64,000 nucleotides of DNA from Thermobispora bispora DSM 43833 (lineage in GTDB: Bacteria; Actinomycetota; Actinomycetes; Streptosporangiales; Streptosporangiaceae): NCBI RefSeq assembly GCF_000092645.1, contig NC_014165.1:2294001-2358000 (forward strand). The letters run 5' to 3'. Below are positions 13,172 through 29,200 of the stretch, piece by piece; the first letter of the stretch is position 1, and every line of letters begins with the position of its first letter. A program made the translations under genes and the position numbers. The notes under the pieces are model-generated. The model saw only the letters and a list, made by a program, of their open reading frames with translations. It was not told the origin of the DNA and searched no databases.

Positions 13172-14250
<1,079 letters not shown>

Positions 14251-28022: not shown

Positions 28023-28997
28023 CTACGAAGTTTTCGACGCGGTGTGCGCCTTTTCGAGATTTCGGGCTTTGATCACACTTGCGACCGTGGTCACCGTCAG
28101 CGTGACCGCGATGACGCTGAGGGAGAGCCAGATCGGGACCTCGGGCGCCCAGGAGAAGCCGCTCTCGTGCAGCGCCTCGAGGATGAGCTTCACCCCGATG
28201 AAGGCGAGCACCACGGAGAGCCCGTAGCTGAGGTAGACGAGGCGCTGCAGCAGCCCGCCGAGGAGGAAGTGGAGCTGGCACAGCCCCATCAGGGCGAACG
28301 CGTTCGCGGAGAAGACGATGAACGGGTCCTTGGTGAGGCCGAAGATCGCCGGGATCGAGTCGAGGGCGAAGAGCAGGTCGGTGGTGCCGATCGCGATCAT
28401 CACGATGAGCATCGGCGTGACCATCCGCCGGCCGTCGACCCGGACCGTGATGCGGGCGCCGACGTAGTCCTCCGTGGTGGGGAACACGCGGCGGGCCCAG
28501 CGGAGCAGGATGTTCTCCTTGAACTCCTCTTCCTCCTCCTTGTTGTGGTCGCGGATGAGGGTGTACGCGGTGTAGAGGAGGAAGGCGCCGAAGACGTAGA
28601 ACAGCCAGCTGAAGTGCGCCAGGGCCGCGGCGCCGATCGCGATGAAGGCGCCGCGCATGACCAGGGCGAGCACGATGCCGACCAGCAGCACCTTGTGCTG
28701 GTAGATCCGCGGCACCCTGAACCGCGACATGATGATGTAGAAGACGAAGAGGTTGTCGACGCTCAGGCTGTACTCGGTGATGTAGCCGGCGAAGAACTCG
28801 GCGCCCGGCTCGATCCCGGCCCAGAACGTTAACCAGACGCCGAACAGCACGGCGAGGCTGGCGTAGACGCTGACCCAGAACCCGGCCTGACGGATCGAGA
28901 ACTCACGTGGGTCGCGCTCGGTGATCCACAGGTCGAAGACGACGACCGCCAGCAGACCCGCGATTACCGCCACCCACATCCACCCGGGCACGCTCAC
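28023..28997 (-). CDS. TerC/Alx-family integral membrane metal transporter
   Basis: A 324-aa TerC-family membrane protein, here probably a manganese exporter. About nine hydrophobic helices are visible. Signature blocks are ITEYSLSVDNLFVFYIIMSRF (in two parts near residues 75-95) and IGTTDLLFALDSIPAIFGLT near 205, each with the Asp of the metal site. A cytosolic acidic stretch (KEEEEEFKEN) lies between the halves. The GTG at 28997 is chosen because GGAGG lies 6 bases upstream. A yybP-ykoY riboswitch upstream supports Mn2+ control. Confidence 0.92.
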   Translation of the reverse strand: MSVPGWMWVAVIAGLLAVVVFDLWITERDPREFSIRQAGFWVSVYASLAVLFGVWLTFWAGIEPGAEFFAGYITEYSLSVDNLFVFYIIMSRFRVPRIYQHKVLLVGIVLALVMRGAFIAIGAAALAHFSWLFYVFGAFLLYTAYTLIRDHNKEEEEEFKENILLRWARRVFPTTEDYVGARITVRVDGRRMVTPMLIVMIAIGTTDLLFALDSIPAIFGLTKDPFIVFSANAFALMGLCQLHFLLGGLLQRLVYLSYGLSVVLAFIGVKLILEALHESGFSWAPEVPIWLSLSVIAVTLTVTTVASVIKARNLEKAHTASKTS

Positions 28998-29001
28998 ACT
29001 C

Positions 29002-29039
29002 GACCTCCGGCACGCGCGCACAACACAATGCCGGAGGTC
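29002..29039 (-). promoter_or_regulatory. Anti-Shine-Dalgarno hairpin of terC riboswitch
   Basis: GACCTCCGGC (29002-29011) is exactly complementary to GCCGGAGGTC (29030-29039). On the transcript the 3' strand of the aptamer can thus pair for 10 bases with the terC ribosome site. The same aptamer strand is also needed for helix P1, so the two structures exclude each other. Confidence 0.7.
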
Positions 29040-29134
29040 TCTCCCGCCCGCGAGCGGCGCGGACCGATGACCCCGGGTGCCCTGGGGGACACCGTGATGA
29101 CGAGATCACCGCGTGGGGATACTCCCCTCCAACC
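29030..29134 (-). ncRNA. yybP-ykoY (Mn2+) riboswitch before terC
   Basis: The minus-strand leader carries the hallmarks of this aptamer: GGAGGGGAGTATCCCC at the 5' side (29115-29130), TCGTCATCACGG in the middle, and GGGAGAGACCTCCGGC at the 3' end (29030-29045). Helix P1 can form between GTTGGAGG (about 29125-29132) and CCTCCGGC. The family senses Mn2+ and often controls TerC or MntP exporters. The arrangement suggests a translational ON switch. Identification is by eye; boundaries are approximate. Confidence 0.82.
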
Positions 29135-29164
29135 GCACCAAGTATACGGGGGTCGATCGGCGCG

Positions 29165-29200
29165 CCGGTCCCGCCGGCCGGGTTACGCCGGCGGGACCGG
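29165..29200 (-). terminator. Hairpin terminator after the murJ-glycosyltransferase run
   Basis: A perfect 14-base-pair stem (CCGGTCCCGCCGGC with its complement at 29187-29200) and an 8-base loop lie about 65 bases past the glycosyltransferase stop. It also separates that operon from the terC leader. Confidence 0.65.

Follow-up and report, generated by a model that had tools for sequence, protein, structure and literature searches.

Mn2+ (yybP-ykoY) riboswitches reportedly go back to two founding papers of 2015. Among the closest described systems, for which the PMC articles are cited here from extracts, translational ON control by Mn2+ has been reported for the mntP leader of E. coli (PMC11647493). 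In the transcriptional yybP-ykoY switches of L. lactis, X. oryzae and B. subtilis, the 3' strand of helix P1.1 is taken by a downstream hairpin at low Mn2+ (PMC6754395, PMC11087558), and the same holds for L031, L032 and L036, which belong to a group of seven loci (L031-L037) found by the Rfam model RF00080 elsewhere in the phylum. In X. oryzae, Mn2+ was measured to stabilise P1.1 against strand invasion (PMC6754395), and this stabilisation depends on a paused polymerase (PMC11087558). Sequestration of the ribosome-binding site by riboswitches, in which pairing with a sequestor is mutually exclusive, is described for Actinobacteria in general (PMC2258182), in an article whose main text does not contain the term 'yybP'. 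Finally, Corynebacterium glutamicum provides an actinobacterial terC gene, cg2157, with a yybP-ykoY leader, which scored 49.13 bits in an older Rfam release and has an observed transcript start (PMC3890552). The aptamer family, its link to terC, translational control in mntP, sequestration of ribosome-binding sites in Actinobacteria and the C. glutamicum leader are thus already known, as far as the extracts of these articles go. Within the open-access literature, the listing of the C. glutamicum leader was the only record found of an actinobacterial Mn2+ riboswitch or of a Shine-Dalgarno (SD) trap ahead of terC, and no description was found of a class-wide element or of a switch strand acting as a direct anti-SD. 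What is new in the present work is a class-wide, mostly Rfam-invisible platform that leads directly from P1.1 to the SD.

The locus lies in a 64 kb window, by which we mean the whole stretch of 64,000 nucleotides that was analysed, of the genome of Thermobispora bispora, which belongs to the Streptosporangiaceae and to the class Actinomycetes (one contig, 4,189,976 bases). There, a riboswitch candidate occupies the leader of terC on the minus strand (29133-28995). The terC product matches PF03741 and TIGR03718 'R_switched_Alx' (374 bits), its nearest named relatives are found in Streptosporangiaceae, e.g. Planotetraspora and Microbispora, and by analogy with its family it probably exports Mn2+. 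The longest open reading frame would start at 29021, which falls upstream of the SD, and GTG 28997 agrees better with the relatives. Based on these relatives and on the spacing of the SD GGAGG (29008-29004), 6 nt ahead of GTG 28997-28995, we prefer the latter as the probable start codon. The transcript likely starts near 29134, at the foot of P1.1; a sigma-70 scan of the leader returned no promoter that passed. The span given in a first-pass annotation, 29002-29134, covers the leader elements but neither the start codon nor the promoter-like TATACT (29146-29141). As that annotation had claimed, the minus strand carries yybP-ykoY hallmarks, a GGGGAGTA loop at 29127-29120 and a GAGACCTCCGGC 3' strand at 29041-29030, and this 3' strand can close the aptamer, since CCTCCGGC (29037-29030) pairs with GTTGGAGG (29133-29126).

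To compare this leader with its homologues, we gathered the upstream regions of terC in related genomes, TerC being found in 51 of 60 relatives. The 110 loci examined comprise 30 of this first set, window included, and a second set made of the best 80 of 366 loci, from named genomes, some genomes being in both. The ordered motif GGGGAGTA...CGTCA was present ahead of terC in 105 of the 110; of the five loci lacking it, L026 had only 54 nt upstream, too short to judge. Alignment A1 contains 36 distinct aptamers at 86% identity, mostly from Streptosporangiaceae, with some from other families of the class. Its structure of 33 pairs (P1.1, P1.2, lower and upper P3, and P4) is paired in 90.8% of the cells, and 19 pairs have changed on both sides. 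None of 500 shuffles reached any of five measures, and sliding the partners reduced pairing to 41-53%. The features of the locus, with the figures of the A1 structure, are the following.

28023-28997, minus strand: terC, Alx-type TerC family membrane protein, 324 aa from the preferred GTG start at 28997.
29141-29146, minus strand: -10-like promoter element TATACT; TATACT or TATAGT begins 17-21 nt before GGGG in 96/105 leaders.
29126-29133, minus strand: 5' strand of the P1.1 switch helix, GUUGGAGG, pairing with 29037-29030; 78.5% of cells paired.
29120-29127, minus strand: 5' strand of L1, GGGGAGUA, invariant in the 36 non-redundant leaders and overlapping the P1.1 5' strand.
29116-29119, minus strand: 5' strand of P1.2, UCCC; 99.3% of cells paired, one pair changed on both sides.
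29115-29112, minus strand: 4-nt linker in place of P2.
29101-29111, minus strand: 5' strand of the lower P3 helix, pairing with 29075-29065; 96.2% paired, 6 of 11 pairs changed on both sides.
29094-29100, minus strand: L3 bulge UCAUCAC, its UCA invariant in A1.
29076-29093, minus strand: upper P3 helix with apical loop; 90.1% paired, 3 of 4 pairs changed on both sides.
29065-29075, minus strand: 3' strand of the lower P3 helix, from the A1 structure test.
29046-29064, minus strand: P4 hairpin; 92.1% paired, all 6 pairs changed on both sides.
29042-29045, minus strand: 3' strand of P1.2, GGGA, from the A1 structure test.
29038-29041, minus strand: 3' strand of L1, GAGA, invariant in A1.
29029-29039, minus strand: switch strand GACCUCCGGCA, of which 29037-29030 (CCUCCGGC) closes P1.1, the full stretch being the anti-SD.
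29002-29012, minus strand: SD arm UGCCGGAGGUC, containing the SD GGAGG at 29008-29004.

P1.1/L1/P1.2, P3 and P4 therefore follow one another in the order that marks the yybP-ykoY family, with co-variation. The foot of P1.1 is weak, its three outer pairs forming in 12, 21 and 15 of the 36 sequences, and in four leaders (L050, L073, L115 and L118) P1.1 has lost a C on its 3' side together with a G on its 5' side. A 5' hairpin, GGGGA-GUA-UCCCC (-6.4 kcal/mol), was considered as the cause of the conservation of UCCC and rejected, because UCCC also forms the co-varying P1.2, which is kept at 99.3%; the hairpin is retained only as an element that may assist the OFF state.

The family assignment proposed by the first-pass annotation was to be checked with the RF00080 covariance model. 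Taken literally, this check gave no match in the window region, at the gathering cut-off or at E up to 10, and 0 of 18 relatives matched. Yet RF00080 also missed the published alx leader of E. coli, even at E up to 10, and placed E. coli mntP at 44.9 bits (E 4.2e-11), 0.1 under the cut-off of 45 (Rfam 15); E. coli was among the genomes matched in the control searches with this model. We then used R1, a covariance model built from A1 that does not contain the SD side. R1 scored the window element at 99.9 bits, with no further copy in the same genome at E up to 10 beyond the terC leader, and matched the alx leader over its whole length (37.7 bits, E 8.6e-8). It was significant on L031 (32.6 bits, E 7.2e-6) and L037 (28.3 bits, E 9.1e-5) and weak on L032 (E 0.016), L035 (0.025), L036 (0.22) and L033 (1.4), and E. 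coli mntP and L034 gave no match at E up to 10. Since RF00080 misses alx as well, and R1 matches alx and RF00080 loci of the same phylum, the miss in the window points to a subtype and not to absence of the family. Because R1 matches alx and not mntP, and RF00080 the opposite, this subtype is alx-like. The RF00080 gathering score, which the window does not reach, serves detection and does not define the family, and the window does have sequence and structure homology to accepted members (alx, L031). R1 recovers alx from actinomycete sequences alone and RF00080 does not, so that the Rfam family could gain an alx-like subtype.

In contrast to the transcriptional yybP-ykoY switches, the window leader has no P2, and neither a P2 hairpin nor a four-way junction, features that are frequent in the family without being universal, was found in it. 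However, alx also aligns to R1 without P2 (with one extra nucleotide there), and the loss of P2 is thus no ground for excluding membership. The absence of P2 as a new trait was likewise rejected, as alx aligns without it and extracts of PMC9495176 describe a three-way junction. The distance from GGGGAGUA to L3 is 17-18 nt in 98 of 109 measured class-wide loci and 18 nt in alx, which, too, regulates an exporter, and it is 24-27 nt in L031, L032, L033, L036 and mntP; a value of 6 for L035 is an artefact of the pattern, as values of 8 and 9 in the class probably are.

Across the class, R1 matches 238 of 394 genomes and 85 of 138 genera, and RF00080 matches 10 of the same 394 genomes at E 0.01 or better and none over its cut-off; strict filters were used in these scans, with about 9 (R1) and 6 (RF00080) candidates scored per genome, and the two models are not on an equal footing, R1 having been built from the scanned class. 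We took 120 R1 loci from 75 of the 85 matched genera and 39 families for class-wide tests. L1 in the window has GGGGAGUA on its 5' side and GAGA(CC) on its 3' side, as expected of the family; class-wide, GGGGAGTA is found in 117/120 loci, and GAGAC, GAAGAC or GGAGAC stands on the 3' side in 120/120. The strict L3 pattern is present in 112/120, and L1, L3 and the 3' L1 strand are jointly intact in 109/120. The M_B-site nucleotides of L. lactis are given as U39, C40, A41, U44 and C45 in the extracts of PMC9190785. The window's L3, UCAUCAC, would line up with L. lactis U39-C45 and so include the Mn2+-contacting adenosine, A29098 probably occupying the place of A41.

We then turned to the SD trap. 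In the window, GACCTCCGGCA (29039-29029) and TGCCGGAGGTC (29012-29002) share 11 perfect complementary bases; the pairing with the terC ribosome site is perfect, as first proposed, and longer by one base than the 10 then counted. Seventeen bases separate CCUCCGGC (29037-29030) from the SD arm UGCCGGAGGUC. A search of the 64 kb window for the two-part strand/SD pattern gave this single occurrence, and none of 100 shuffles contained it. For comparison, we collected the 34 GGAGG sites of the window that are followed, 4-10 nt later, by the start codon of an open frame of 100 codons or more. Among these, the terC site matches the switch strand over the greatest length (11), and 22 of the 34 match only 5; the second-longest match, 10 at 13587 on the plus strand, indicates that a long match can occur without such a leader. 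This arrangement differs from that of alx and mntP, whose 14-nt switch strands begin 86 and 122 nt upstream of the start codon; their Watson-Crick runs to the following RNA do not exceed 6 and 7, respectively, and stop at least 30 nt short of the start. The alx strand pairs instead with GGCGAGGTC in a local hairpin, whereas the window strand is itself the anti-SD.

The same platform is found across the class. In the 105 leaders ahead of terC, the strand starting with GAC was compared with the 69 nt that follow it; the Watson-Crick run reaches 7 or more in 97, 6 in six and 5 in two. With one locus per genus (75), the mean run of a strand with its own downstream RNA is 7.03, as compared with 5.52 when permuted (maximum of the permutations 6.04; the own mean is reached by 0/10,000), and 51/75 genera have runs of at least 7, a length found in 27% of swapped pairs. 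Genera with a strand other than the common CCTCCGG (37 in all) behave alike (6.35 vs 5.00 permuted, maximum 5.81), as does a sample of one locus per family, families being treated as independent (6.92 vs 5.42 permuted, 0/20,000). Matched changes of strand and arm include CCTTGTG/CACAAGG, CCTTCGG/CCGAAGG, CCTCCAGC/GCTGGAGG and CCTTGAC/GTCAAGG. In the 67 of 75 genera with at least 7/8 standard pairs, strand positions 4, 5, 6 and 7 show 3, 3, 4 and 3 types of Watson-Crick pair with the SD arm. When the best ungapped 8-mer is scored, 28/75 genera reach 8/8 standard pairs, as against 16% of swapped pairs, and 67/75 reach at least 7/8, as against 61%; this looser test is weaker because any SD partly fits a CCUCC strand. 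Of the 64 genera whose run is 6 or longer, 54 have an SD-like core in the arm, followed by a start codon 3-16 nt on. The strand thus pairs in a mutually exclusive manner with the aptamer or the SD, with co-variation, in a sample where 11/75 genera lack a run of at least 6; having runs of only 4-5, some lineages presumably use something else. Taken together, the complementarity is kept in most homologues by co-variation (75 genera, 39 families, 0/10,000 permutations), and the two-state translational design put forward in the first-pass annotation is well supported by comparison and partly by folding of both states. Its attribution to 'this lineage' is too narrow, the design being found across the class.

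Folding of both states was carried out with Vienna energies, which have no Mn2+, docking or ribosome term and serve as pointers only. For a transcript up to 29029, the minimum-energy fold is exactly the aptamer; for the full leader, it is the trap, with the SD predicted to be fully paired. The ON (aptamer) state was computed at -55.7 and the local OFF (trap) state at -67.0 kcal/mol; further pairs lower the two states to -74.2 and -91.2 kcal/mol (37 C). The computed gap of 11-17 kcal/mol in favour of the trap is more than metal binding would plausibly repay at equilibrium, indicating that the switch is probably set during transcription. On these energies, the locking of P1.1 would have to precede the synthesis of the SD arm. 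When the aptamer was enforced, the base-pairing probability of the SD was 0-0.63 with the RNA ending at 28986, 0-0.92 at 28960 and 0.58-0.97 at 28930; in silico, the SD then leaves the trap and may pair weakly with spacer and coding RNA, to an extent that varies with the folded length.

We propose that the emerging transcript would fold into the aptamer (P1.1, L1, P1.2, P3 with L3, and P4; P2 is lacking). At high Mn2+, docking of L1 on L3 would lock P1.1, CCUCCGGC would remain in this helix and the SD would escape from the trap. At low Mn2+, the SD arm, synthesised some 20 nt later, would displace P1.1 and take the strand in an 11-bp helix; GGGGA, now free, could form a small hairpin with UCCCC, and access of the ribosome to its site would be blocked. 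The logic described for X. oryzae (extracts of PMC6754395 and PMC11087558) would then hold for the terC leader, by analogy, with the SD in place of the terminator. We consider it very likely that this leader is a Mn2+-responsive yybP-ykoY riboswitch of an alx-like subtype, which turns on translation of a TerC/Alx-type Mn2+ exporter. Within this reading, Mn2+ is the probable ligand by analogy with the family and its genes, control would be translational rather than by termination and in the ON direction, and the computed energies point to a setting of the switch during transcription.

The same aptamer could instead act mainly on transcription, the hairpin being a U-less intrinsic terminator or exposing the RNA to Rho when translation fails. 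Indeed, in L031, L032 and L036 the same strand forms a 9-12 bp hairpin followed by a U-run, E. coli mntP couples a translational riboswitch with Rho (extracts of PMC11647493), and in silico the ON state leaves the SD incompletely exposed. However, the competing hairpin of the transcriptional switches is an intrinsic terminator, with its U-run in L031, L032 and L036, whereas that of the window holds the SD and has no U-run; no terminator-like site was found in the terC leader, and at least 5 T in the 8 nt after the arm are seen in only 1/64 genera. Moreover, the arm coincides with the SD, and in 54/64 a start codon follows 3-16 nt later, so that the same helix would block translation. Action mainly on transcription is thus unlikely, and translational control by Mn2+ remains the preferred reading.

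The genes behind the element bear on the nature of its cue. A TerC-like frame lies within 400 nt in 108 of the 120 class-wide R1 loci, and the window element itself stands ahead of terC, hence of a Mn2+ exporter or homeostasis gene as judged from its family. The other 12 loci include GDT1 divalent-cation antiporters (PF01169 for L159 and L178; L164 and L171 look alike), a Na_Ca_ex exchanger in L170, a PGPGW protein and a protein with a GreA/GreB C-terminal domain. It is highly unlikely that, with its switch geometry unchanged, the leader senses a cue other than Mn2+, such as pH or a different divalent ion: E. coli switches are tied to alkalinity besides Mn2+ (PMC9603457), a switch of a Mn2+/Ca2+ transporter is described (PMC9495176), both as given in extracts, and the gene behind some R1 loci is a cation exchanger or GreA-like, but L1, L3 and the Mn2+-contacting adenosine are kept, and 108/120 genes are TerC-like. 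That a fixed hairpin merely lowers terC translation, the aptamer being no longer responsive, is extremely improbable, for although the trap is far stabler in silico than the aptamer state, the co-variation of P1.2, P3 and P4 and the intact L1, L3 and 3' L1 strand in 109/120 loci indicate continued selection on the aptamer, which is the minimum fold of the shortened transcript.

Beyond the window, we think it rather probable that, in many Actinomycetes, TerC/Alx exporters are under an alx-like, P2-less Mn2+ riboswitch mostly unseen by Rfam, in which three strands (the 5' strand of P1.1, the switch strand and the SD arm) co-evolve and the decision is kinetic, and that the SD platform replaced the 3' arm and U-run of a terminator, or the reverse. 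This reading assigns a sensor to the TerC genes in a large class of medical and industrial importance, where Rfam annotation of the leader is mostly blank. The compact exchange between P1.1 and the SD also makes the equilibrium-versus-kinetic question testable in the Mn2+ family: if the decision is kinetic, Mn2+ has only the time of transcribing about 20-30 nt to lock P1.1.

Several further observations were made at R1 loci. In L152, the element precedes a small PGPGW membrane protein (PF09656, 1.7e-17). In L173 (f85), the match is followed by a protein with a GreA_GreB C-terminal domain (PF01272, 8.8e-13); the N-termini at L228 and L236 look like that of this GreA-like protein, their first 78 and 67 residues having no Pfam match. 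It would be unusual for a Mn2+ switch to precede the gene of a transcription factor. Two same-strand elements, L214 and L215 (G603:C1:323541-323651 and 324832-324933), lie about 1.2 kb apart, each before its own TerC-like frame.

Upstream of the leader, a strong inverted repeat, GGTCCCGCCGG...CCGGCGGGACC, occupies 29165-29200 of the window, in the interval that separates the terC promoter from the glycosyltransferase gene upstream; it has no T-run and perhaps marks the transcript end of the glycosyltransferase gene. Relatives such as L039, L041 and L042 have a hexamer TTAGGT/C/A at a fixed distance of 18 nt upstream of the -10 element; of the 96 leaders that possess a -10, 76 or more show it. 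Allowing for one change at most, 25/105 leaders contain TTAGGYNANNCTAA, which resembles what we take to be a DtxR/IdeR/MntR-type operator. The window has GACCGG (29170-29165) in place of TTAGGT/C/A, suggesting that protein control of terC may be lost there.
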